Virus record (IMG/VR): IMGVR_UViG_3300042691_039133
Coordinates: 1 to 64,000 of that record
Direction: 5' to 3' (one strand)
Length of the DNA: 64,000 nucleotides
From: a virus
Made by a program: the position numbers and the translations under genes. The notes below the pieces were generated by a model that was not told the DNA's origin, did no database searches, and saw nothing but the letters and a program-made list of their open reading frames with translations. Positions 10,495 to 62,909 of this stretch are shown here, one piece after another (the stretch's first letter is position 1; each line of letters begins with the position of its first letter).

Positions 10495-12306
10495 ATGAAT
10501 ATTTATAAAAAGAATAATATAGTTATAGGGGGATTACTTTCTAGCACCTATAATTTTATATCCAGAACTTACTCGCAAAGTAAAAATTTATTTACAGTGG
10601 CTTCTGCATGGGGACAAATATTATTTGTTTTCCAGAACATATCTCAACTTATACTTTACTTTATAGAGGATTCAATTACTGAATTGAATATAGAACAAGC
10701 AACCAGAGAGTATTCGATAAGAAGTCTTGCAAGGATATCAGGATACGATCCCAGAAGGTCAGGAACTGCTCAGGGAGAAGTCATAGTTTCGTGGAATTCT
10801 TCTAATACACAAGCACAGGGCGGATCTATTATAATACCAAGGAATACCCAAATAAGAAATCAACAAAATGGACAGATATACACTTTAATACTTCCTTCAG
10901 ATAGAGTAACTGTTCCTCTCTCTTCCCAATTTACCCCGTTGACGGTAAAAGTTGTCCAGGGATCTTTTACCTCTTCTAATTTCACTTCAAACGGAAATGT
11001 GTTATTTAGTTTTAATGTTCCTTCCCTAAATGGATTTGCTATAGATCAATTTTATATTGATGTTTATGTCAACGAAGAGAAATGGAGGAGATATGATTCT
11101 CTTTATGATATACCATTAAACGCAAAAGGATTTATAGTTAAAAGCGGAATATCTAGCGGGATAGATGTTTATTTTGGTAACTCTTTCTTCGGACAAATAC
11201 CCCAAGCTGGATCTAGAATTAGAGTAGAATATCTAAGTAGCATAGGAAGAAAAGGTAATTTAAATTCTACCCAAAATAATCCCCTTACCTGGAAATTTTT
11301 AACCAGCGGAACAGATTTATATGGAGCTTCTTTAGACCTAAATCAATATCTGAATATAGCAAACTCGATAGATCCAGATTTTGGAACGGATCCAGATGCT
11401 AGTTCTCTAATACGAATAGTAGCTCCAAAGACCAGTAGATCTTTTGTTTTTGCAAATGCAGATAGCTATGAAATATTCTTAAATAAATTAGGGATATTTT
11501 CTCAGATACAAGCATATTCTACTTTCGATGATGATTATTTGGATGACGATAATGTTATTTACATATACCTAATACCTGATGTAACTTTAAATATTTCTAC
11601 GGATCAAGATTATTTTAGTATACCCGAACAAAATTTTATATTAACCGAAAATCAAAAAAATAAAATTATAAATCTAATAGAAGATTCCGGTTCTATGATA
11701 GCTACTACAGTAGTTAAGATAACTTCTCCCGTCATAAAAAGATTTGTCCTTAATATAAGTATATCCATATTCCAGGGATTCGATCCCAATACGATAAGAC
11801 AACAGATAAGAACTAAAATATCTGATTATATGTTAAACCTGAAAAGGAGGGACAAAATACCGAAATCTGATATCATAGCAATCGTGGAATCTATTTCGGG
11901 GATCGATTCTGTTAATGCAGAATTTATATCCCAAGACGATCAGGATAAAATAAATTCCATCTCAGCAAATACCCAGCTAAATCCTGTTGCAACTTCAGGA
12001 TTAATTTCTTCAAATTTCCAAGCTCCCCAAACCCCTTTAGGAACCCCGATTAATATTCCAGAAAATATAATATCTGCTAATTTTCAATCTTCCTCTATCG
12101 ATGTTTTCGGGGACATCATAATAGGAAGAAATCAATTGGTTTTGCTTAGAGGCGGGTGGGAAGATTCTAATGGAAATAGATATGAATCTAGCCCAATCCG
12201 AGGAAAATTAGGTCCTCTTAATATAATTATATTAGGAAAACCAGTTCCTAATAATTTCAATACTCAATTAAATAAAACAACAAGACAATCGATTGTCAAT
12301 GGATAA
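10495..12306 (+). CDS. Baseplate wedge subunit, gp6/baseplate-J-like
   Basis: The protein has 603 aa (T4 gp6 is 660 aa). The N-terminal helical region (residues ~1-85) includes SITELNIEQATREYSIRSL. It is followed by the gp6/J signature GYDPRRSGTAQGEVIV (~residues 82-97) and repeated beta segments, including 'GGSIIIPRNTQI' (~residues 107-118). The C-terminal half contains the dimerisation-type part, e.g. RDKIPKSDIIAIVESISGIDSV. gp6 forms the inner ring linking wedges around the hub. Its stop codon overlaps the start of the next gene. The assignment is firm on order and pattern. Confidence 0.8.
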   Translation: MNIYKKNNIVIGGLLSSTYNFISRTYSQSKNLFTVASAWGQILFVFQNISQLILYFIEDSITELNIEQATREYSIRSLARISGYDPRRSGTAQGEVIVSWNSSNTQAQGGSIIIPRNTQIRNQQNGQIYTLILPSDRVTVPLSSQFTPLTVKVVQGSFTSSNFTSNGNVLFSFNVPSLNGFAIDQFYIDVYVNEEKWRRYDSLYDIPLNAKGFIVKSGISSGIDVYFGNSFFGQIPQAGSRIRVEYLSSIGRKGNLNSTQNNPLTWKFLTSGTDLYGASLDLNQYLNIANSIDPDFGTDPDASSLIRIVAPKTSRSFVFANADSYEIFLNKLGIFSQIQAYSTFDDDYLDDDNVIYIYLIPDVTLNISTDQDYFSIPEQNFILTENQKNKIINLIEDSGSMIATTVVKITSPVIKRFVLNISISIFQGFDPNTIRQQIRTKISDYMLNLKRRDKIPKSDIIAIVESISGIDSVNAEFISQDDQDKINSISANTQLNPVATSGLISSNFQAPQTPLGTPINIPENIISANFQSSSIDVFGDIIIGRNQLVLLRGGWEDSNGNRYESSPIRGKLGPLNIIILGKPVPNNFNTQLNKTTRQSIVNG

Positions 12307-44104: not shown

Positions 44105-45124
44105 ATGGAAAATTTGGACATCTTTAATTTAAGCGCAGATTCTTTAGTAACTAAAGTAAATGCAAAATCTGAAAAGGATTTGGAATTTTATAAACCATAT
44201 CCTGAAAATGGGAAAGACGGGGTTTATAAATCTTTAATCCGTTTTGTTCCTAATCCGGTAGATCCGGCTAAATCTAAAATCCACAAATATTATGTTTACT
44301 TGAATGATCCGGTTTCCGGAGAATCATTTCCTGTAGACTGTCCTTCGACTGTGGGTAAAAAATCAATCGTAAAAGATCTTTTCTGGAAACTTAAAAATTC
44401 TCATTCTGCAGCAGATCAAGAATTAGCTAAGTCTTTTTCTAGAAAAGAAGATTTTTATGCTTTGATTCAAATAGTTCAGGATAAAAATTCACCTGAATTA
44501 GAAGGAAAGATTATGATTTTTAAGTTTGGTAAAAAACTTAATGACATGATCGAAGCACAATTAAAACCAGAATACGGGGACCCTTCAAATCCATTTGATT
44601 TATTTAACGGTAGAGAATTTGCTATCCAAGTAAGAAAGGTTGGGGAATGGAACAATTATGATCTTTGCTCTTTTGTTGGAAACCCATCTCCTATCAAAAT
44701 CGAAGGAATTCCTATGGAAAGAAGCGAAGGAGATATGAAAAAGATCGTTGATTATCTTAACAATGGTCCTAAGAATTTATCTTCTTTCGATTATAAGGAT
44801 TGGGACGATTCTACAACTCAAAGAGTTATGTCGGTGATTAGAAATTCTGTTCCCGAAGGAAGATTAGTTAATGAAGTTATTGGAGGAGTTTCTTCTGCAC
44901 CTTCTACTCCATCTAATAATTCTTACACTTCTCCGGTACAATCTTATACATCACAATCGGAGTCTGCTCCTAGAACTCAGGCTACTTCCGAACAAATATC
45001 GGATTTTAATAACTTCTACAGCGAAGCATCTAATACAAAATCAGCTTCAGATAACACGACAGAAGCTTCTCCTAATAGCTCAGGAGGAATATCTTCTCTA
45101 GATGATCTTTACGCAGATCTTTAA
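44105..45124 (+). CDS. 32: Single-stranded DNA-binding protein, T4 gp32-like
   Basis: The protein has 339 aa (T4 gp32 is 301 aa). The OB-fold core aligns with T4: ENGKDGVYKSLIRFVPNP (residues ~34-52), SPELEGKIMIFKFGKKLND (~128-146) and NGREFAIQVRKVGEWNNYD (~168-186). The C-terminal ~70 residues are a Ser/Thr-rich linker with the acidic tip SSLDDLYADL, equivalent to T4 DLDDLLNDL, which recruits partner proteins. The His/Cys zinc site of T4 gp32 is absent: only one Cys (in FPVDCPSTVGK) lies in that region. A strong terminator follows. gp32 coats ssDNA for replication and UvsX/UvsY-dependent recombination. Confidence 0.85.
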   Translation: MENLDIFNLSADSLVTKVNAKSEKDLEFYKPYPENGKDGVYKSLIRFVPNPVDPAKSKIHKYYVYLNDPVSGESFPVDCPSTVGKKSIVKDLFWKLKNSHSAADQELAKSFSRKEDFYALIQIVQDKNSPELEGKIMIFKFGKKLNDMIEAQLKPEYGDPSNPFDLFNGREFAIQVRKVGEWNNYDLCSFVGNPSPIKIEGIPMERSEGDMKKIVDYLNNGPKNLSSFDYKDWDDSTTQRVMSVIRNSVPEGRLVNEVIGGVSSAPSTPSNNSYTSPVQSYTSQSESAPRTQATSEQISDFNNFYSEASNTKSASDNTTEASPNSSGGISSLDDLYADL

Positions 45125-46929: not shown

Positions 46930-48471
46930 ATGCTAAGATTTCAGATTTCTGACGACGAACAGTGGATGATTCTTTTAGATTTTGAGGATGAAGTGGAAAA
47001 GAAGCAGATTGAAATCTCTTTGACTAAAAAAATTCACAATTTTTATTTTCATCCATTAGTTAAAAAAAAGCTGTGGGACGGATCAATTTGTTTCATAGAA
47101 AAGAAGGGGGGATTTTGGAAAATACCTATAGGTCTTTGGAGAGAAGTTCTCCAGATAGGAGAAGAATATTCCATTAAAATAGAGATAAATGGTTTAGATA
47201 GAATAATCTTAAAAGATCTAACACTGGAAGATTTTACCCAATGGATTAATAAATTTTTCGAAGGCGGTATAGGAGGAGATCCTGAAAAAATGCCAAGGGA
47301 TTATCAAATAGAAACAGCTTGGAAAATAATTAAATATAGGTACTCCATAAGCGAAGTTGCCACCTCTAGTGGTAAAACCTTAATCTCTTTCATGATACTT
47401 GCGTACCTCAAATCTATGGGGCTAATACGTAAGTATTTGATGATAGTTCCTACTACAAATTTAGTATTTCAGGGAAATGATGATTTTATAGATTACGGTC
47501 TAGATAAATTGGAGGGATCTAGAGTTCAACAAATAGGGGGAGGTAGTAAATTAAGAGGGGATTGTGATGTTATAATAGGAACCTTTCAATCTCTAGTTAA
47601 AAAGGAGGCTGATTTTTTTGAAGAGGTAGATGCTGTTTTTATAGACGAAGCTCATTATACTAATTCCAATTCGATCAAGAAGATAGTTTCTAAGTGTATG
47701 CATGCTAAATGGAGATACGGACTAACCGGAACTCTAACAAAAAGAGGAACTGCAGATCATCTTACCATACAGCAATTCCTTGGTCCTTTGATCATGGAGA
47801 TATCCCCGAATTTTTTATTCCAAAATAATTATGCAACCCCAGTTTATGTAAAAGTTGTTATTATGGATTGGCTAGATCAGGAATATAAAGAAAAGCTTGC
47901 AGATCTAAAATTAAACACCAACAATCTAGAGGGAAATGACGTTTATAATCTCGAAAGAAAACTAGTAATTGAAAGTAAAATAAGGTTAAATTACGTTGTC
48001 GATTTTATATCTAGAACTTCTAAGAATTCTTTAGTTCTTTTCCAATCGGTAAAAGACGAATATGGAAAAAATATTTGGAATCTCTTAAGAGAAAAAACTT
48101 CGGATAAAGAAGTGTTTTATGTTGATGGGGACACGTCAGAAAATCTAAGAGAAGAATATAAATCTAGAATGTCGAAAGGAGAAAATAAAATTCTTATAGC
48201 TACCTACGGAACATTCTCTACTGGAATATCTATAAATAATCTCCATAATATATTTCTTGTTGAATCCTATAAAAGTGAGGTTTTAATAAAACAAAGTCTA
48301 GGAAGAGGAATGAGAAAGATGGAAGGGAAAGAGAGTGTTAATATAATAGATTTTGTTGATGATTTTAGTGTTTCTAAATATCAAAATTATCTGATGAAAC
48401 ATAGTCTTGCTAGAATTGAGATATACAAAAAAGAACAATTTCCCTATAAGATATACAAAGTAAAATTATAA
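46930..48471 (+). CDS. uvsW: RNA/DNA helicase UvsW-like
   Basis: The protein has 513 aa (T4 UvsW is 503 aa). An N-terminal UvsW-type nucleic-acid-binding domain (~residues 1-115) includes PLVKKKLWDGSICF. Superfamily 2 helicase motifs follow: PRDYQIETAWK (Q-like/Ia), TSSGKT (145-150, Walker A), PTTNLV, IIGTFQSL, DEAH (239-242), YGLTGTLTKRG (motif III), FSTGISI and QSLGRGMRK (motif VI). UvsW unwinds R-loops and branched DNA and switches T4 from origin- to recombination-dependent replication. It follows uvsY as in T4. All catalytic motifs are intact. Confidence 0.9.
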   Translation: MLRFQISDDEQWMILLDFEDEVEKKQIEISLTKKIHNFYFHPLVKKKLWDGSICFIEKKGGFWKIPIGLWREVLQIGEEYSIKIEINGLDRIILKDLTLEDFTQWINKFFEGGIGGDPEKMPRDYQIETAWKIIKYRYSISEVATSSGKTLISFMILAYLKSMGLIRKYLMIVPTTNLVFQGNDDFIDYGLDKLEGSRVQQIGGGSKLRGDCDVIIGTFQSLVKKEADFFEEVDAVFIDEAHYTNSNSIKKIVSKCMHAKWRYGLTGTLTKRGTADHLTIQQFLGPLIMEISPNFLFQNNYATPVYVKVVIMDWLDQEYKEKLADLKLNTNNLEGNDVYNLERKLVIESKIRLNYVVDFISRTSKNSLVLFQSVKDEYGKNIWNLLREKTSDKEVFYVDGDTSENLREEYKSRMSKGENKILIATYGTFSTGISINNLHNIFLVESYKSEVLIKQSLGRGMRKMEGKESVNIIDFVDDFSVSKYQNYLMKHSLARIEIYKKEQFPYKIYKVKL

Positions 48472-48820: not shown

Positions 48821-49756
48821 ATGGAAAAAGAACGGCTAAGGTTTAATGATTTTTTAAAACTCTTTGAGGGTGGATCTGCTATAAAGACGGCAAGAAAAAT
48901 CAGGGAGGATGAATTTCCTAAAACTTTAGAGAGCATACAAAAAGACCTTCTTCCTCTTTTGGATATAAATTTCGAAAAACTGGGGGAAGAGTATATTATA
49001 ATAGGAAGTATAGGGAAAAAGAAAAATCCTTCTGATGAATCGGGGGATTTGGATTTAGGATACGATGGAAATATATTCTCTAAGAATCAAGGGGTTGAAT
49101 ATAAAGAATGCTCTAAAAAAATATACGAAATTTTAACTTTAAATCTTAAAGATATTCTTGGGTTTGAACCCGAGATAAATTTTTTAAGAGGACTAAATAT
49201 AGTTAGTCTGGGGTGGCCAATATGCGGAAATCCAGAATTAGGAATAGTTCAATTGGATTTAATTCCACTTTCTTCAATGCAATGGGCTAAATTCATTTAT
49301 TATTCCCCAGATTATAGATTCGGAGAGAGTAAATACAAATCTGCTCACAGGAATTGGCTTCTTTCCGCAATTCTTTCCGCAAAAAGAAATGTATTGGCTT
49401 CTGATGAGGAGGGAGAAGTTCTAGATTATGAATCCCCGGTTATAATTCTAAGCGATGGTCTTTATCTAAATACCAAAAGTTTCAGGGGAAAATTAAAAGG
49501 GAGACTTAAGAACCCTAAGAAAATAGCTGGGGAACAGTTTATAACTAACAATCCTCAGGAATTTATAGATTATACTTTAGGTAAAGGGTATAACCAAGAT
49601 CAAATAAAAACTTTTGAATCTCTTTTTAAAATAATAACTTCTCCTAATTTTACAATGAAGGATAAATTGCCGGAAATAAAAGAGAGATTTCTGGAATATA
49701 TGGAAAGAACAGGACTTCCGGTTCCATCCGAAATAAATTACCTACCCTCTAAATAA
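48821..49756 (+). CDS. Pol-beta-type nucleotidyltransferase
   Basis: The protein has 311 aa. The nucleotidyltransferase signature is IIIGSIGKKKNPSDE followed by DLDLGYD: a GS motif, then D-x-D after a 12-residue loop. The third acid is in GIVQLDLIPLS. The rest is helical (SKYKSAHRNWLLSAILSAKR). Such enzymes add a nucleotide to RNA, protein or small molecules; the substrate is not visible. The N-terminus RFNDFLKLFEGG contains a leader-like F..F..[L]xE segment. It is joined to thioredoxin without a gap and followed after 46 bp by an RNA-ligase-like gene, so RNA-end processing is a reasonable idea. Confidence 0.65.
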   Translation: MEKERLRFNDFLKLFEGGSAIKTARKIREDEFPKTLESIQKDLLPLLDINFEKLGEEYIIIGSIGKKKNPSDESGDLDLGYDGNIFSKNQGVEYKECSKKIYEILTLNLKDILGFEPEINFLRGLNIVSLGWPICGNPELGIVQLDLIPLSSMQWAKFIYYSPDYRFGESKYKSAHRNWLLSAILSAKRNVLASDEEGEVLDYESPVIILSDGLYLNTKSFRGKLKGRLKNPKKIAGEQFITNNPQEFIDYTLGKGYNQDQIKTFESLFKIITSPNFTMKDKLPEIKERFLEYMERTGLPVPSEINYLPSK

Positions 49757-49802: not shown

Positions 49803-51737
49803 ATGTCAGGAATATCACACCTTTACGATCTATACAACAAAAAAGGACAAGAGTTTATAGAAAAACTGTTCAACACTTACGTTACTGTAAATGAAAAAAT
49901 GGACGGATCAGCTTTTATTTTCGAAAGAAATCTGGAAACCGGAAAATTTAAATTCTATAAGAGAGATCAGAGAAATCCGATAACTATGGTGGATAGGACC
50001 TTAATGAAATATTACGAAGTCCCTATTCAATATATAGAATCTCTCCCTCCTCACATCATAAGTAAAATCCCAAGGGGATGGAAATTTGGTCTTGAATATT
50101 TTTCAAGTCCCCAACCCGTAGAGATAGCATACGATAGAATACCTAAAAATAATTTGATACTTTCTTATGTTCATGTTATAGAAGAGCCGGGGGTTATTTC
50201 CAGAACTATACAGGAAAAAGAAAAACTAGACGAATGGGCGGATCTTTTAGGAGTGGAAAGACCTCCTATTATTTTCCAAGGAGATCTATCCGAAGAACAG
50301 AAACAAAATATTTTAGAATTCTTAAGAACCCCATTCGACGAACTTTTAGCAGAATTTAAAACAAAGAGTTTTGTTAGATTCATAATAGGGATACTAAATC
50401 CCGAATTAAAGAAAACTGCTTTAAACGAAGACCTAGATAAAGCGATAGAGGGAATAGTTTTTAGATTCGGAAGCCCAGAAGGGGGTGATCCCATTCTTTC
50501 TAAAATGGTGGATCCTATATTTACGGAGATGGCTAAGAATAAAGCCGCTAAAAGAAAAGAGGAAAAGCCTAGTGATTTCTTAGGAATAACTCTAATAGAC
50601 GTAATGAATTTCATATTAGAGAGGGGAGTAAAATCTTTTGATTGTAAAGGAGATACTAACGACGAAAGATATGTCTCTTTTATGTCTTCAGTGTTTGTTG
50701 ATTTTCTGGAGCAATATTCTGATATGTACAAAGGAGCAGATTTCCAAGAGCCCGAATACCTAAAAAAAGATGAATTTAGAATAAATAAAAAATTCATAAA
50801 GAATAAAGAAGTTATAAAACATTTAGAAGAAGACGAATCCTTTGAATCACTATTTAAACTCATGCTTAATTCTTTCAGAAAAATAAAAAAGAGAGCAGGG
50901 GGATTAATAAATAAGGGAGCATTGGATCAATTTAATTCTTTAGTAGGGGATATTCAAAATCAAGTGGAAGCTGTAAAAGAATCCCTAGTATTTGAATCTG
51001 ATCTTCCAACTTTTTTAGACTTTAAAAGAAAGAATTCCAATAAAAATAATGTTAACTACGTTACTGAAGAATCCGATTCCGAAAGGGAAGAAGATCCTTT
51101 CTATTCTTATAATGAATTTATATCTGCATTAGAAACTATAGATAACACTAAAAAGCCAAAAACAGATCTAATAGAAGAGGAGAAAGAAGAAAAGGAATTA
51201 AAGGATGTAAATATTCTCATAGGAAGATTCCAGCCATTCCACAATGGACATTTGAAAATGGCTAAGATAATGAAAGAGAAAAACGATCTTCCGTGTATAA
51301 TTGCGGTCGTTCATCCTGGACACAATTCTTCGGGAAAATCCCCATTTGACGAGGATCTAGTTAAGAAATATATGGAGGCCGTTGTTAGAGAAAACGGAGA
51401 TACCCTTTGTGGATTTTTTATAGTGACTAGAGGACTTTTAGGAGTAATATACGGAGCTTCTAAATCCCATGGATTTAATGTGAAAATGATAGGTGCAGGA
51501 GAAGACCGGGAATCTGATTATAAAAAGCAAATAGATTATCTAAAAAAGAATGGGTCTGATTTTCCAAGCGATATGTCGATAATTAAAACCCCTAGAACTA
51601 CCAGTGCAACTGAGGTAAGGGAAAAAATAAAAAATGAGGATTTTACTTCTTTTAAAAAACTAGTTCCCCCTTCTATATCATCACTTTATAATTCTCTAGT
51701 TACTGGAATGAATTCCCACGTAAAAGCAGGAGATTAA
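49803..51737 (+). CDS. RNA-ligase-like / NMN adenylyltransferase-like fusion
   Basis: The protein has 644 aa with two enzyme domains. Residues ~20-270 form a covalent nucleotidyltransferase: NEKMDGSAFIFE (motif I, K32-x-D34-G35), WKFGLEYF, AIEGIVFRFGS (motif IV) and a Lys-rich motif V area near 240-255. Residues ~290-465 are a helical, Glu/Lys-rich linker. Residues ~470-630 hold an HxGH nucleotidylyltransferase: IGRFQPFHNGHLKMAK (474-483 core) and TSATEVREKI (the ISxTxxR element), as in NadM/NadR-type NMN adenylyltransferases. The first domain would seal RNA ends and the second would make NAD from NMN and ATP. The combination in one chain is unusual. All visible catalytic motifs look intact. 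Confidence 0.75.
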   Translation: MSGISHLYDLYNKKGQEFIEKLFNTYVTVNEKMDGSAFIFERNLETGKFKFYKRDQRNPITMVDRTLMKYYEVPIQYIESLPPHIISKIPRGWKFGLEYFSSPQPVEIAYDRIPKNNLILSYVHVIEEPGVISRTIQEKEKLDEWADLLGVERPPIIFQGDLSEEQKQNILEFLRTPFDELLAEFKTKSFVRFIIGILNPELKKTALNEDLDKAIEGIVFRFGSPEGGDPILSKMVDPIFTEMAKNKAAKRKEEKPSDFLGITLIDVMNFILERGVKSFDCKGDTNDERYVSFMSSVFVDFLEQYSDMYKGADFQEPEYLKKDEFRINKKFIKNKEVIKHLEEDESFESLFKLMLNSFRKIKKRAGGLINKGALDQFNSLVGDIQNQVEAVKESLVFESDLPTFLDFKRKNSNKNNVNYVTEESDSEREEDPFYSYNEFISALETIDNTKKPKTDLIEEEKEEKELKDVNILIGRFQPFHNGHLKMAKIMKEKNDLPCIIAVVHPGHNSSGKSPFDEDLVKKYMEAVVRENGDTLCGFFIVTRGLLGVIYGASKSHGFNVKMIGAGEDRESDYKKQIDYLKKNGSDFPSDMSIIKTPRTTSATEVREKIKNEDFTSFKKLVPPSISSLYNSLVTGMNSHVKAGD

Positions 51738-51751: not shown

Positions 51752-52579
51752 ATGAAAAAAATAAAAAACTTTTCAGAATTCTTAAATGAAAATTTTATAG
51801 ATCATTCCTTCTTTTCTAAGATAGGATCTTTAGTTACCGGAGCTAAAAATAGGGAGATGGCTTCATCTTCTACTACTACAGAGACGACACCTAAGGTTTC
51901 TACGTCAACCAGTAGCGAAGTTCCTAAAGCATCGATATCTAGTGAAATAGTAAATTCTAATAAATATTCAGATTTTACTACAGATCCTCTCCAGAATGCA
52001 AAATTGTTAGAGCCTCTTTCTTTTGGCCCCTATAAATGGAAGGGAACCTCTGGAATGCCTATAGATATTTATTTTAAGGGAAATCAACCGATATTTAGGA
52101 AAACCCCAGATGGAAGTACTTATTGCACAGGGTATACATTTTCTGTTGCTTTTGTCACTTGTTTAAATCGGGGTCTTCTTAATGATTTTACCGATGCAGA
52201 TATCCGTAAAATGCAGATAGTTTGGAATTCAGGAGATCCTAAATCCTACCCTAAATTATGTGTAGATGCGATATCGAAACCAATTTCTCCAGCTTTAAAG
52301 TCTTTGGGCGAAGAAGTTACTATAGATGAAGTTCAACCGGGAGATTTTTGCCAGCTGTGGAGAACTTCCGGATCTGGTCATAGCGTTATAGTTATGGAAA
52401 TTGTAGAAAAGAACGGTAAGAAAGTAGGTATAAAATATTACAGCTCTAATGGAACTATAAACAAAGAAACTAAAAGAACTGGACCAGGAGAAAATACAGA
52501 ATATTTTAGTGACAGCGGAGGTACTGTTCTTAGGAAAAATACTTATTATGCTCGATTAAATCAATTAAATCAATCTTAA
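51752..52579 (+). CDS. Capsid-targeted CHAP/NlpC-like cysteine hydrolase (candidate)
   Basis: The protein has 275 aa. The leader MKKIKNFSEFLNE closely resembles the T4 capsid-targeting sequence, with L-N-E as possible gp21 cleavage site. A Ser/Thr-rich spacer (~40-70) follows. Then comes a papain-like/CHAP domain: YCTGYTFSVAF with C125 at a helix start, GDFCQLWRTSGSGHSVIVME with H210 at a strand start, and YYSSNGT as the possible third residue. Such domains cut peptidoglycan amide or peptide bonds. If packaged, it would act at entry; if not, it could serve lysis. It is distinct from the spike, which lacks a lysozyme domain. Confidence 0.65.
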   Translation: MKKIKNFSEFLNENFIDHSFFSKIGSLVTGAKNREMASSSTTTETTPKVSTSTSSEVPKASISSEIVNSNKYSDFTTDPLQNAKLLEPLSFGPYKWKGTSGMPIDIYFKGNQPIFRKTPDGSTYCTGYTFSVAFVTCLNRGLLNDFTDADIRKMQIVWNSGDPKSYPKLCVDAISKPISPALKSLGEEVTIDEVQPGDFCQLWRTSGSGHSVIVMEIVEKNGKKVGIKYYSSNGTINKETKRTGPGENTEYFSDSGGTVLRKNTYYARLNQLNQS

Positions 52580-52590
52580 ATCAATATCAA

Positions 52591-53232
52591 ATGAAAAACA
52601 TATTATATTTCGAAAAATGGAATTTAATGGAGGGAGAAGGGGATCTTAATATCCTCAGTTACGGGATTACAAAAAAACAATTCATCCAAACACCTAGACA
52701 CGATTTGGATACTTACATAGAAGGCCTTACTTTAAAACTTAAAGAAGAAACTGCTTCTAAATCTATTAAAGTTACTCCTAGTAATCCTGTACTATTAGTG
52801 GTAGTTTTTTCTGCTACAAATTGGTCAAAAGACATGATAAAAGAAAGAGATGAATTATACGAAGAGTTTTATAACCTTACGAAAAAAAGATCAACTATAG
52901 GAATCCCGGTAGTTTTTGTAATACAAGAATCTAATTCAGAAATGAAATTTGAGGTTCCATCTATAGACCAGGAAGGAAAAAGTATAGAAAGAACCCCAAT
53001 AGTAATGAATGATGTTTATATTCAAGTTATTGGGAATTCAGATGGGGATTATATAGAAAAGGTGGAAGAAAAATTAAAATTACCAGTTCAAAAATCTAAT
53101 ATAGAAAGAATGGGTCCTTTTGGAACAGACCTTAATAAAGGACTTTTAATCCAGAGAAAACAATACGGGGGAAGCTGTATTATAGGGCATGGTAAGGTTA
53201 TAGGGGATATTATATCCAATATATTTAAATAA
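52591..53232 (+). CDS. Unknown protein with head-targeting-like leader
   Basis: The protein has 213 aa. The start MKNILYFEKWNLME has the spacing of the capsid-targeting leader (F at 7, L-M-E before a Gly). The core alternates strands and helices: NPVLLVVVFSATNWSKDMI, IGIPVVFVIQES, VYIQVIGNSDGDYIEKVEEKL. This suggests an alpha/beta fold of ~190 residues with a possible Rossmann-like order. No catalytic motif is recognised. It lies 11 bp after the peptidase and 15 bp before the SGNH hydrolase, so it belongs to the same cassette. Confidence 0.5.
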   Translation: MKNILYFEKWNLMEGEGDLNILSYGITKKQFIQTPRHDLDTYIEGLTLKLKEETASKSIKVTPSNPVLLVVVFSATNWSKDMIKERDELYEEFYNLTKKRSTIGIPVVFVIQESNSEMKFEVPSIDQEGKSIERTPIVMNDVYIQVIGNSDGDYIEKVEEKLKLPVQKSNIERMGPFGTDLNKGLLIQRKQYGGSCIIGHGKVIGDIISNIFK

Positions 53233-53235
53233 AGG

Positions 53236-53243
53236 AATATATA
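53236..53243 (+). promoter_or_regulatory. RATATATAR motif before SGNH gene
   Basis: AATATATA followed by A, preceded by GG, lies 4 bp before the GTG start at 53248. Confidence 0.4.
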
Positions 53244-53247
53244 AACT

Positions 53248-54597
53248 GTGAAAAATATTAAAAAATTTAAAGATTTTATAAACGAAGGCTTTTTCGATTC
53301 CGAGACTTTAACTAGATTTGGGTCAATAATACTGAATAAAAACTACACAAGCTCTCAGACTTCTCCTTCTACAATTTCTTACACTAATCAGGGGGTAACC
53401 GATAAAAATATGGTCCCGGTTAATAACACAGATCCGAAAAAAATTCTATTTATAGGAGATTCCCATACCTCAATAAAAGATAAAAAAGGAAAAGCTGTAA
53501 CTTACACGTATCCAAATATATTAAAAAAAGAATTAGAACCTAAGGGATACACTATAGATGTTTTAGCTCTAGGAGGAATGACTACGCAATGGATGCTAGA
53601 TAATCTCCCTGGCCAATTAAAAAATAAAAAATACGATAGAGTTTATATCTACGGAGGAGCAAATGATGCTATGAATTCTAGTATAACTCTGGAAAAAGCT
53701 CTTTCCAATATACAAAAAATGGTAGACCTTTCTAGAAATAATGGTGCTGATGTATTCGTAAATCAAGGATATATTATAGAGGGAGAGAAAGGGAGTTTTG
53801 GAAACTGGAAAAAAATGTCAATATCCGGGACTGTTCTTAAAAAACAAGAAGAATGGATTCCCTATGTCGAAAGAAAAAAAGAATTACAAAGAAGAATTCC
53901 ATTAGAAATAAAAAATGCTAATTTCATTGCCCCTTATGATTTAAAGGGAAATACATCTGACGGGATACATGCTAATTCTGAAGGACAAAAAATGGTAGCT
54001 AAAATTTTCTCTGACTCCATAAAAAATACACAGGAAGGATATCAAAGTAGTACATCTTCTACGTATTACACAGCTCCTAGAACAGGGCCTTTACCAAAAT
54101 CCATAACTATAGGGGATTCTTTAGTTCCGTATGTTGCAAAAGGAGCAGGAATTTCCGAAGGTCCTAAAGCTACGGATATAAAAAATAAAGGAAAAAATGG
54201 TCTATGGTTTGGGGGTATTGCAGTAGGGAGTTTATTGAATTTTTCTAAAGATTATAAAAATTCCGATCCAAGTGTCAGAAATGTAGTTATTTCTATAGGA
54301 ACAAATGGAATATTCGGAAGAAGCACAAAGACGATAAAATCCTTAATGGAAAGGTTAAAAGAACTATTCCCGAATGCAAGGGTTTTGGTTGTAAAAGGAG
54401 CATACGGTAGTAAACTCGTTGCTTACCCCGCACTCCAAAAGGTAAGCCAGTCTACTGTAGATGCCTTCTATTCAGACTTTAGTTCTAATGGAGCAATAGT
54501 AATTCCTACCCCAGTAGGTAATGTTATCGATGCTCATGGACATTTACCGGTGTATAAAATTATAGGGGAAGAAATAAAATCAAGACTAAAAGAATAA
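53248..54597 (+). CDS. Double-domain SGNH/GDSL hydrolase with head-targeting-like leader
   Basis: The protein has 449 aa from a GTG start. The start is supported by the leader (M)KNIKKFKDFINE, matching the peptidase gene leader. Domain 1 (~65-260): IGDSH (S72), GGMTT, GGANDA (N139) and SDGIH (D238, H241) give all SGNH blocks. A linker rich in Ser/Thr follows. Domain 2 (~283-449): IGDSL (S291), SIGTNG (N353) and DAHGHLPVY (D428, H432), a second and more diverged SGNH copy. SGNH enzymes hydrolyse esters, often deacetylating polysaccharides. Acting in the head or at the cell envelope on entry is inferred from the leader. Confidence 0.75.
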   Translation: MKNIKKFKDFINEGFFDSETLTRFGSIILNKNYTSSQTSPSTISYTNQGVTDKNMVPVNNTDPKKILFIGDSHTSIKDKKGKAVTYTYPNILKKELEPKGYTIDVLALGGMTTQWMLDNLPGQLKNKKYDRVYIYGGANDAMNSSITLEKALSNIQKMVDLSRNNGADVFVNQGYIIEGEKGSFGNWKKMSISGTVLKKQEEWIPYVERKKELQRRIPLEIKNANFIAPYDLKGNTSDGIHANSEGQKMVAKIFSDSIKNTQEGYQSSTSSTYYTAPRTGPLPKSITIGDSLVPYVAKGAGISEGPKATDIKNKGKNGLWFGGIAVGSLLNFSKDYKNSDPSVRNVVISIGTNGIFGRSTKTIKSLMERLKELFPNARVLVVKGAYGSKLVAYPALQKVSQSTVDAFYSDFSSNGAIVIPTPVGNVIDAHGHLPVYKIIGEEIKSRLKE

Positions 54598-54599
54598 GA

Positions 54600-55130
54600 A
54601 TGAAAAATTTATTAAATTTTAAAGGATGGGAAGGTATGAACGAATCTGATGGATTCGGAACTTCTCCTTTCCTTTTAGTGAAAGAAAAAGATCAATATAA
54701 TTACTTCTTCAATCTAGAAGGAAAAAAGGAGGACAAAGGGTTTCATCTAATAGTAGGAAAATATTCAGAAAAAGAAGTTATATCAGGATCTAAAAATTCT
54801 TATTGTGTACTAGGACTTTATGGTATAGCACACGAGTTAATAGACGATATAGCTATAGATAAAGCCGAGATACCTTCTTCCAATAATCAAAAATTTAAAG
54901 TGGACGAAAGCGAAATCTCTAGAATTTTAGAATGTGTTTCCAAATGCGTTTTAGACTACTTGGAAAAGAATTCTAAAGTTAGCCGAATATATGATGAAAT
55001 TCAAGAAACTTTATTCCTTAAAGGGAAAGGAAGCTATTTAGAATATATGAAATCTGTAATAGGACCGGTTATTGGAGATTGGGCTATCCAAGAGGGAAGC
55101 GATAAAAATTCAGTTTTAATTAGTAGATAA
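54600..55130 (+). CDS. Unknown protein with head-targeting-like leader
   Basis: The protein has 176 aa. Its start, MKNLLNFKGWEGMNE, is like that of the gene at 52591 (MKNILYFEKWNLME), though the cleavage triplet would be M-N-E. The body is mixed alpha/beta with FHLIVGKYSEKEVISG and a helix LECVSKCVLDYLEKNSK. No known motif is seen. It starts 2 bp after the SGNH hydrolase, so the two are coupled. It may be another internal head protein. Confidence 0.45.
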   Translation: MKNLLNFKGWEGMNESDGFGTSPFLLVKEKDQYNYFFNLEGKKEDKGFHLIVGKYSEKEVISGSKNSYCVLGLYGIAHELIDDIAIDKAEIPSSNNQKFKVDESEISRILECVSKCVLDYLEKNSKVSRIYDEIQETLFLKGKGSYLEYMKSVIGPVIGDWAIQEGSDKNSVLISR

Positions 55131-61514: not shown

Positions 61515-62909
61515 ATGAAATCTTTTTCTCAATTCTTGAACGATAAAATTTATGAAGCTGAAACTCCTCCCGTTGTATTTAAAGGGCTAAAAGGGGATCC
61601 GTATCAGTATAAAATACAAGACGAAAAAACCTATTACGCAAAAAGATCTTTAGGAACTCTAGAACCAGAATCAGACCAATGGATAGAACAAACATCGGAA
61701 ATTGGAATAAAAGCTATAAAAGATCTATATACTAAAGTCACTACGGGATTGGAAAATAGCGTAGTTTTAGATGAAAAAACCAAGGAAAAAATTATGGATC
61801 TTCAAGGGATTCTAAACGAAGTCAAGAAAAAACTCCCTAAAATATGGACTCTTCCTCTAAAAATTGATGGTGATCCAGGATGGAAAACTTGTTTTTCCTG
61901 GTATTGTTTAATGATCGTGTATCCTGGTGCTACTGAATATTCAGGAGGTGTAAATGACGTTGCGAATTATGATTTAAATATGTACAATTCATTTAAAGAA
62001 TTAATCGTAAAACTAGAAGGATTTAAAACCCCTTTTGAATATTTAAGTAAATTTAAAGATCGCGAAACTGGAGCGTTAAAAGATATAGATTTGGATGCTC
62101 TTATAAAGAAAACTAGGGATCAAAAAGATTTTATTAATGGGATTCTTCAACCTGGATCTATTGTAGAAAATTTATTCTGTAGTTCCATAATAAAATCTAT
62201 ACCGGAAAATATTACAGCCCAGACAATTGATATAGATTCCTCATGTCCTATTAGGACTATACCTAATACTTTAAAGTGTAATATTCTAAACGTCAGAGGT
62301 AAAAATAAACAAAATCCTATTGTTATTCCTAAAATAGATTGTACATCTTTAAATATAATGGGACCTGTTTCTATTTCTCCAGAATGGAGCCATATAGAAT
62401 ATTTAAGTTTAAATGATGATTGGGAGTATGGTCCAGCAACTATACTAAAAAATCCTATACCAGAAACCTTAAAGTCTATAGGGGAGCTCGCGATATCTTC
62501 TCCTACCATAACTTCTTTACCAGATAATTTAAGCATAGGAGAAATAAAAGAAAATTATTTCGTAGATCCTCCGCCCGTAGAGACTCGATACGTGGATGAT
62601 AAAATAGAATCCGAAGAAATAATTACTAATCAGGGAAAGAAAAAAAGACCTTGGTGGAAAAGACTTTTCGGAATAAAAGAATCCCAAATTTATGAAGGGT
62701 ACAGCCGATACGGGAATCTTTATATCCGCGGCTGCTATGAATTAAAAACCTTACCTAAAGGTCTTACTGTACTTGGAGATTTTTACATAGAGGGATCAGG
62801 TATAGAACAAGCTTACACTGACCAACAGATTAGAGAAGTTTGTATCATAAAAGGAAAAATACTAAGATTTGGAGGGGAAGAAGGTGTATTAGAGATTCCT
62901 AATTCTTAG
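61515..62909 (+). CDS. Leucine-rich-repeat protein with capsid-targeting-like leader
   Basis: The protein has 464 aa. MKSFSQFLNDKIYEAE has the F..FL element of the leader, with a possible I-Y-E cleavage site. Residues ~25-215 are a helical domain (TGLENSVVLDEKTKEKIMDL; CFSWYCLMIVYPGATEYSGG). From ~220 there are irregular LRRs of the IpaH/NEL type: SIPENITAQTIDID, TIPNTLKCNILNV, PIPETLKSIGELAI, SLPDNLSIGEIKEN, and after an insertion TLPKGLTVLGDFYIEGSG. No ligase catalytic Cys motif is recognised. It may bind a host protein after injection or be a structural head protein. A strong terminator follows. Confidence 0.65.
   Translation: MKSFSQFLNDKIYEAETPPVVFKGLKGDPYQYKIQDEKTYYAKRSLGTLEPESDQWIEQTSEIGIKAIKDLYTKVTTGLENSVVLDEKTKEKIMDLQGILNEVKKKLPKIWTLPLKIDGDPGWKTCFSWYCLMIVYPGATEYSGGVNDVANYDLNMYNSFKELIVKLEGFKTPFEYLSKFKDRETGALKDIDLDALIKKTRDQKDFINGILQPGSIVENLFCSSIIKSIPENITAQTIDIDSSCPIRTIPNTLKCNILNVRGKNKQNPIVIPKIDCTSLNIMGPVSISPEWSHIEYLSLNDDWEYGPATILKNPIPETLKSIGELAISSPTITSLPDNLSIGEIKENYFVDPPPVETRYVDDKIESEEIITNQGKKKRPWWKRLFGIKESQIYEGYSRYGNLYIRGCYELKTLPKGLTVLGDFYIEGSGIEQAYTDQQIREVCIIKGKILRFGGEEGVLEIPNS

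Follow-up and report, generated by a model that had tools for sequence, protein, structure and literature searches.

A phage gene joining an RNA-ligase-like domain to an NMN-adenylyltransferase-like domain may belong to an undescribed RNA-repair and NAD-repair kit

Tailed phages are known for two separate kinds of enzyme that act against host defences, one repairing RNA and the other salvaging NAD. On the NAD side, the NARP pathways combine NadV with an NMN adenylyltransferase (NMNAT) in NARP2, or Adps with Namat in NARP1. On the RNA side, jumbo phages possess RlaP sets, in which a Pol-beta nucleotidyltransferase adjoins an RNA ligase and has been proposed to restore nucleotides prior to sealing (PMC7824862). 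As to the phage particle, T4 head proteins bear propeptides of 10-20 residues (capsid-targeting sequences) that are cut after Glu (PMC5694885; PMC3012670), and T4-GC190, a homologue of the NMNAT domain considered here, was detected by mass spectrometry in virions of the cyanophage S-SM1 (PMC3037559). The locus analysed in this work resembles the RlaP sets in that its Pol-beta gene is adjacent to an RNA ligase, and the NARP pathways in that it encodes an NMNAT-type domain, NadV being present in some genomes of its clade. Unlike the former, its Pol-beta protein matches no Pfam or PHROG family and carries a leader, while its ligase is fused to the NMNAT domain; unlike the latter, the 64.8-kb record is devoid of NadV, and both the ligase fusion and the Pol-beta linkage are foreign to NARP. 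The literature searched, from which most subscription journals fell outside, contained no description of a ligase-NMNAT fusion or cassette.

The window, i.e. the whole stretch of 64,000 nucleotides that was analysed, is part of a 64.8-kb virus record and represents a fragment of a large T4-like phage genome, with T4-like markers such as a baseplate wedge protein (10495-12306), a gp32-type single-strand binding protein (44105-45124) and a UvsW-type helicase (46930-48471). The fusion gene (49803..51737, + strand) encodes 644 amino acids, starts with ATG and reads in one frame with no internal stop; the call draws on this single ORF, on the search of its own genome and on 32 distinct full-length relatives. 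Assembly chimerism or a frameshift was ruled out by full-length fusions, 84% identical, on independent contigs and by many divergent ones, and dN/dS between close pairs was about 0.01-0.10 for the ligase and NMNAT domains alike. The fusion is thereby confirmed as real, being neither a product of chance nor an assembly chimera. One scan of genome contigs returned no genomic bacterial relatives of it. On one contig (L003/L047) the gene lies in pieces, for which sequencing error and pseudogene formation are both possible. A 230-aa open frame also runs antisense to the fusion gene (50171-50863, - strand), and nothing marks it as a gene. Scans of the window for sigma-70 promoters and terminators gave chance-level results, and the late promoter TATAAATA, found 22 times versus 17.9 expected by chance, was uninformative.

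The N-terminal part of the protein (aa 1-245; 49803..50537, + strand, as are all the parts below) is an Rnl2-like nucleotidyltransferase (RNA ligase) domain. AlphaFold, supplied with an alignment of 15 relatives, modelled the fusion with a mean pLDDT of 75.7, both domains lying mostly at 80-95, and the best Foldseek match of the ligase domain in the PDB was T4 RNA ligase 2 (2hvr; E 3.6e-7, probability 1.00); Trl1 (the yeast-type tRNA ligase), REL1 of trypanosomes and the Rnl of Naegleria were matched as well. The domain shares with T4 Rnl2 (gp24.1) and PF09414 not only the fold but also the catalytic motifs, in the same order: (i) motif I EKMDG (KxDG; aa 31-35; 49893..49907), of which K32 is the expected adenylated lysine, (ii) motif III GLEYF with E98 (aa 96-100; 50088..50102), (iii) motif IV EGIVF (EGxV) with E216 (aa 216-220; 50448..50462), and (iv) motif V SKMVDP with K234 (aa 233-238; 50499..50516). 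A KRD stretch is found at aa 53-55. In contrast to T4 Rnl2 and PF09414, motif V contains one Lys instead of KxK, a helical region and an NMNAT domain follow in the same chain, and the score lies below the Pfam cut-off (PF09414 RNA_ligase, 17.7 bits against a curated 27); PF09414 was reached at E <= 0.01 in 10 of the 18 members tested. Because a PDB sequence/profile search with the ligase half yielded no ligase match, even at E 10, it is the fold and the motifs that identify this half as a ligase. We had also considered a LigA-type NAD dependence as the reason for the pairing and dropped it, given the lack of any sign of an Ia-type NAD-binding domain and the Rnl2-like fold. Behind the ligase core, the AlphaFold secondary structure places an alpha-helical domain (aa 246-390; 50538..50972), conserved even among relatives that have no NMNAT, and then a disordered linker (aa 391-465; 50973..51197; pLDDT <50 at 392-463), whose dN/dS was the highest or near-highest among the four segments in most pairs.

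The C-terminal part (aa 466-640; 51198..51722) is a NadM-like NMN adenylyltransferase domain of the HIGH superfamily. It passes the cut-off of CTP_transf_like (PF01467; 26.2 bits against 21), its nearest specific NCBIfam was NMN adenylyltransferase in 18/18 members tested, and the PDB profile search returned NMN adenylyltransferases exclusively; Foldseek gave a mixture of NaMNAT, NMNAT and PPAT structures (best 8aih, E 4.8e-5). With NadM, NadM-Nudix (NatV-type) and archaeal NMNATs, its nearest families by profile, the domain has in common the GRFQPFHxGH motif (GRFQPFHNGH, the HxGH nucleotide-binding motif; aa 474-483; 51222..51251) and an ISSTxxR-type motif (TSATEVR; aa 600-606; 51600..51620). 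It departs from them in having neither Nudix nor kinase domain, in its fusion to a ligase, and in falling far below the equivalog cut-offs (29.9 versus 127 bits for PRK01153; 23.5 versus 181.2 bits for TIGR01527). Fold and motifs are thus secure, while exact family membership is not. The initial annotation, which had proposed from the letters a single chain with an RNA-ligase-like domain (KMDG, EGIVFRF and the lysine at position 32) and a NadM/NadR-type domain (GRFQPFHNGHL, TSATEVR), and which named structure prediction as one means of refuting it, holds up well: the 644-aa ORF is intact, EKMDG at 31-35 places the lysine at 32, K32, E98, E216 and K234 follow each other as expected, and AlphaFold with Foldseek recovers both folds confidently, with NMNATs as nearest profiles of the second. 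In these models the presence of both folds is almost certain.

Most window-type relatives were gathered by scanning with the Pol-beta partner described below. Of the 32 distinct full-length fusions, all but LR756500 make up the window's own clade, and these 31 without exception retain KxDG, the glutamates of motifs III and IV, the lysine of motif V, and GRFQPFHxGH; both sites are predicted, and likely, to be active in this clade. Outside it the picture is different. In LR756500/L021 the ligase lysine is changed to N and T replaces the first H of HxGH (the K to N change being that of L006/L021), while L005, L028 and L031 retain the ligase lysine and lack HxGH; the family tree has long branches, and the positions of L021 and the L005 group in it are insecure. 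In relatives from huge phages (642 and 735 kb) the lysine is replaced by D and the NMNAT half is missing. The ligase-fold proteins of huge phages (L007, L008, L022-L027, L029, L030, L032-L034) show Asp for the catalytic lysine and no NMNAT, and with their Lys-rich C-terminal tails have the appearance of pseudo-ligases. Every fused relative sampled kept the catalytic motif in one half or more. LR756500 encodes another ligase-like gene with EKLDG immediately upstream and a separate RNA ligase that scores above cut-off; the relative of the fusion is therefore not the sole sealing enzyme there. In L056 (6420-8987) the ligase-NMNAT chain runs on without a break through a protein homologous to that of window gene 54600-55130, giving 855 aa that may represent either a real fusion or an assembly deletion.

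Directly upstream of the fusion lies a gene for a Pol-beta superfamily nucleotidyltransferase of 311 aa (48821..49756, + strand). Its GS...SGDLD...QLDL catalytic pattern, including the third Asp, is invariant in the alignment of relatives, and its AlphaFold model is of high confidence (pLDDT 89.4) with a poorly ordered leader. The fold search gave no match at E <= 0.001; the weak best PDB matches (CutA, Pol beta, Cid1 and MenT3) all belong to the Pol-beta superfamily. The start of a ligase gene was found within 120 nt downstream in 31 of 45 Pol-beta ORFs and within 460 nt in another 10, a count that is one-sided (from the Pol-beta side only), because the loci were fetched with a Pol-beta query. 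This adjoining gene fits an RNA-end-repair set.

The Pol-beta protein begins with a putative cleavable capsid-targeting leader, MEKERLRFNDFLKLFE|GG (aa 1-16; 48821..48868, + strand). Within the window clade the leaders preceding GG are variable and 13-23 residues long, and [L/I/M/V]xE|GG closes the leader in 36/36 distinct Pol-beta sequences; in distant relatives (Atu_ph07, Lak, Mendera) the protein begins with MGG or MSG. In its length and in its end at a Glu cleavage-type site the leader is like those of T4 internal (ejection) proteins, and to judge from these features the Pol-beta partner is probably packaged in the particle. The fusion protein itself, unlike T4 internal proteins, is without such a leader: it starts MSGISHLYDLYNKKGQEF, and no site was found within its first 60 residues, so that its packaging is only a guess. 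The virion-borne T4-GC190 (the cyanophage 'cytidyltransferase', or 'cytitidyltransferase', for which the literature searched gave no description) contains an NMNAT-like domain homologous to that of the window (hhalign 96.2%), in a protein that, in contrast to the window's, is not joined to a ligase; its member in P-SSM4, PSSM4_155, has the N-terminus MKKFSAFLKEA. The initial annotation, right about both folds, had missed the leader on the Pol-beta protein and the NMNAT homologue in virions, which point to delivery by the particle. The gene downstream of the fusion (51752..52579, + strand) has the capsid-targeting-like N-terminus MKKIKNFSEFLNEN and sits where gene content differs between close relatives. 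Such N-termini (MKKIKNFSEFLNEN, MKNILYFEKWNLMEGE, VKNIKKFKDFINEGF, MKNLLNFKGWEGMNE and MKSFSQFLNDKIYEAE) occur in a block of genes at 51752-55130 and 61515-62909 in the window; the content of this block varies between close relatives as that of T4 internal proteins does, and its VKNIKKFKDFINEGF gene includes two GDSL-lipase stretches.

The same partnership recurs, in several arrangements, in other phages. The Stenotrophomonas phages Mendera and Moby and the Xanthomonas phage X1 encode Pol-beta-like, nuclease-like, ligase-like and NMNAT proteins as separate neighbours, the first three having been called by motif. A second type of ligase-NMNAT fusion, with the domains in the same order, is found in the Vibrio phages Va1 and pv27, in the Campylobacter phage CP220 and at 14 IMG/VR loci (present in 14/14 contigs; 3 of the 14 are CP220-type sequence). 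Its ligase domain is homologous to that of the window (hhalign 95.8%); the NMNAT site of Va1-type fusions is often degraded and their NMNAT profile is closer to PPAT. In a third arrangement the order is reversed, NMNAT preceding a different ligase-like domain, as seen in Mel-JY01, LR756508 and 37 of the 80 contigs fetched; this ligase-like family (L103-L182) has at least 579 IMG/VR matches and is abundant in marine phages. Before its ligase-like domain, E|GG was present in 43 of 60 cases and M-GG in 17. The NMNAT profiles are homologous to that of the window (hhalign 99.6% for Mendera and 97.5% for Va1, besides the cyanophage value given above). For the ligase side, hhalign gave no link between the window domain and the proteins of the reversed-order type (LIGT2), Mendera and P-SSM4, and these are therefore termed ligase-like on their KxDG/EGxV motifs only. 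One 1203-aa chain (L116:622-4233) unites NMNAT-like, retropepsin-like Zn_protease (PF05618), Pol-beta and ligase-like domains, its Pol-beta domain being 38% identical (E 2e-50) to a Lak phage nucleotidyltransferase. As the pairing is conserved in many large phages, is linked to Pol-beta and has been fused in different domain orders, it is unlikely to have arisen by accident, and because the same partnership recurs in this way, the fusion and its cassette may constitute an undescribed RNA-repair and NAD-repair kit.

Several further features were noted among these loci. The L103-L182 family reads EK[LT]DG...EGIVF...KxTGxFAPxNQ, is often fused to NMNAT and preceded by [LI]xE|GG or LLM|GG. In L177 (15-2330), a Nudix domain (PF00293, E 1.8e-14) and a LIGT2-type ligase-like domain share one chain. 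The Agrobacterium phage Atu_ph07 (L013:9606-15314) carries a run of tandem paralogues that, by motif, read as ADP-ribosyltransferase-like (YRGMSS..., RSNSIFCTG...), located directly after its ligase-like and Pol-beta genes.

We propose that the N-terminal domain would act as an Rnl2-type covalent ligase, loading AMP from ATP onto K32, passing it to the 5'-phosphate end of a polynucleotide, most likely RNA, and sealing that end to a 3'-OH, while the NadM-type C-terminal domain would convert NMN and ATP to NAD+. The Pol-beta nucleotidyltransferase could replace lost nucleotides ahead of sealing, and the three activities would then form a set for RNA-end repair and NAD replenishment. The fusion may accompany its packaged Pol-beta partner or act later, and the likeliest benefit would be the reversal of host tRNA cutting or of a NAD drain. 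In this scheme we infer the ATP loading, the RNA and NMN substrates, the packaging and the counter-defence role. Taken as a whole, this account, in which a working ligase and NMN adenylyltransferase would team up with the Pol-beta enzyme against RNA damage and NAD loss, is the likeliest reading yet tentative, its chance standing somewhat below even. Its boldest form, a particle-borne Pol-beta/ligase/NMNAT machine that would be injected with the genome and rebuild tRNA and NAD before expression, or make NAD-linked RNA, we consider quite improbable.

Among the alternatives, the two domains could act one after the other on the same RNA instead of serving two pathways side by side: the ligase would join to RNA an adenylylated product of the NMNAT-like domain (NAD+ or another dinucleotide), yielding NAD-linked or otherwise capped RNA, or the NMNAT-like domain would itself modify RNA in the manner of TmcAL. 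TmcAL is a HIGH-fold RNA-modifying enzyme, and the NMNAT half shows weak similarity to its family (PF05636; fold match 5y0t). The existence of both domain orders argues for such coupling, as do the three domains united in L116, hard to square with two unrelated jobs, the occurrence of the pairing without NadV and, in X1, beside a full NadV and NadM-Nudix pair, and the ADP-ribosyltransferase-like genes read by motif in Atu_ph07. The disordered linker of some 70 residues, however, does not enforce channelling, the domains decay independently among relatives, and we know of no coupled-chemistry enzyme of this kind; we regard this reading as unlikely, while leaving it a modest share of the probability.

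It could also be that the locus serves mainly NAD salvage, the NMNAT domain partnering NadV in a NARP2-like manner with the ligase as an unrelated passenger or regulator. A NadV-type phosphoribosyltransferase is indeed encoded by 4 of the 7 window-type contigs exceeding 200 kb (two of them above the NCBIfam PRK09198 cut-off), and in these four no further NadM or NadR was found; LR756500 has a PncB-type gene and CoaD. The other three contigs lack NadV, although they may be incomplete, and NadV is absent from CP220, Va1, pv27, Mel-JY01 and P-SSM4, all of which possess the pairing. Since the pairing exists without NadV in these phages and in X1 adds its NMNAT to a full NadV and NadM-Nudix set, NAD salvage is not its only or general role: it fits the window clade and fails to explain the pairing at large. 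In addition, the ligase is conserved at least as well as the NMNAT domain and its linkage turns up again in distant phages, making a mainly NAD-salvage role quite unlikely. The same data bear on the suggestion in the initial annotation that the chain links RNA repair to NAD restoration after host defence, which is partly supported: the Pol-beta neighbour and NadV in four of seven contigs fit it, and it is weakened by the NadV-less phages, by X1 and by those relatives beyond the window clade in which the ligase lysine or HxGH has been lost.

The ligase might instead act on DNA or DNA/RNA hybrid ends, for instance to mend nicks or ends in the phage DNA that enters the cell, where the Pol-beta enzyme would fill gaps. 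T4 Rnl2 seals 3'-OH RNA nicks irrespective of the downstream strand, a Pol-beta protein beside a ligase recalls base-excision or end-joining logic, and the Pol-beta model is about as DNA-polymerase-beta-like as it is CutA-like. Against this, the nearest folds of the ligase domain are the four RNA ligases named above, no DNA ligase being among the Foldseek matches listed, and PF09414 was the sole ligase Pfam reached; action on DNA ends thus has quite a low probability. Finally, an enzyme-derived protein with a structural or assembly role in the virion, its catalysis incidental and its fold serving as a scaffold or core component, would agree with the huge-phage proteins that show a replaced K32, no NMNAT and Lys-rich tails, with relatives whose architecture outlived one active site, and with the capsid-targeting-like neighbours and the NMNAT homologue in virions (PMC3037559), yet the catalytic motifs kept in all 31 members of the window clade render it decidedly improbable.

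Under the preferred reading of an RNA- and NAD-repair set, the fusion, if active, would join two arms of counter-defence in one polypeptide. The leader on its partner and the virion homologue suggest that repair enzymes are possibly delivered together with the phage DNA. The same reading would give a function to the cyanophage 'cytidyltransferase', a core gene for which 389 phage records were matched.
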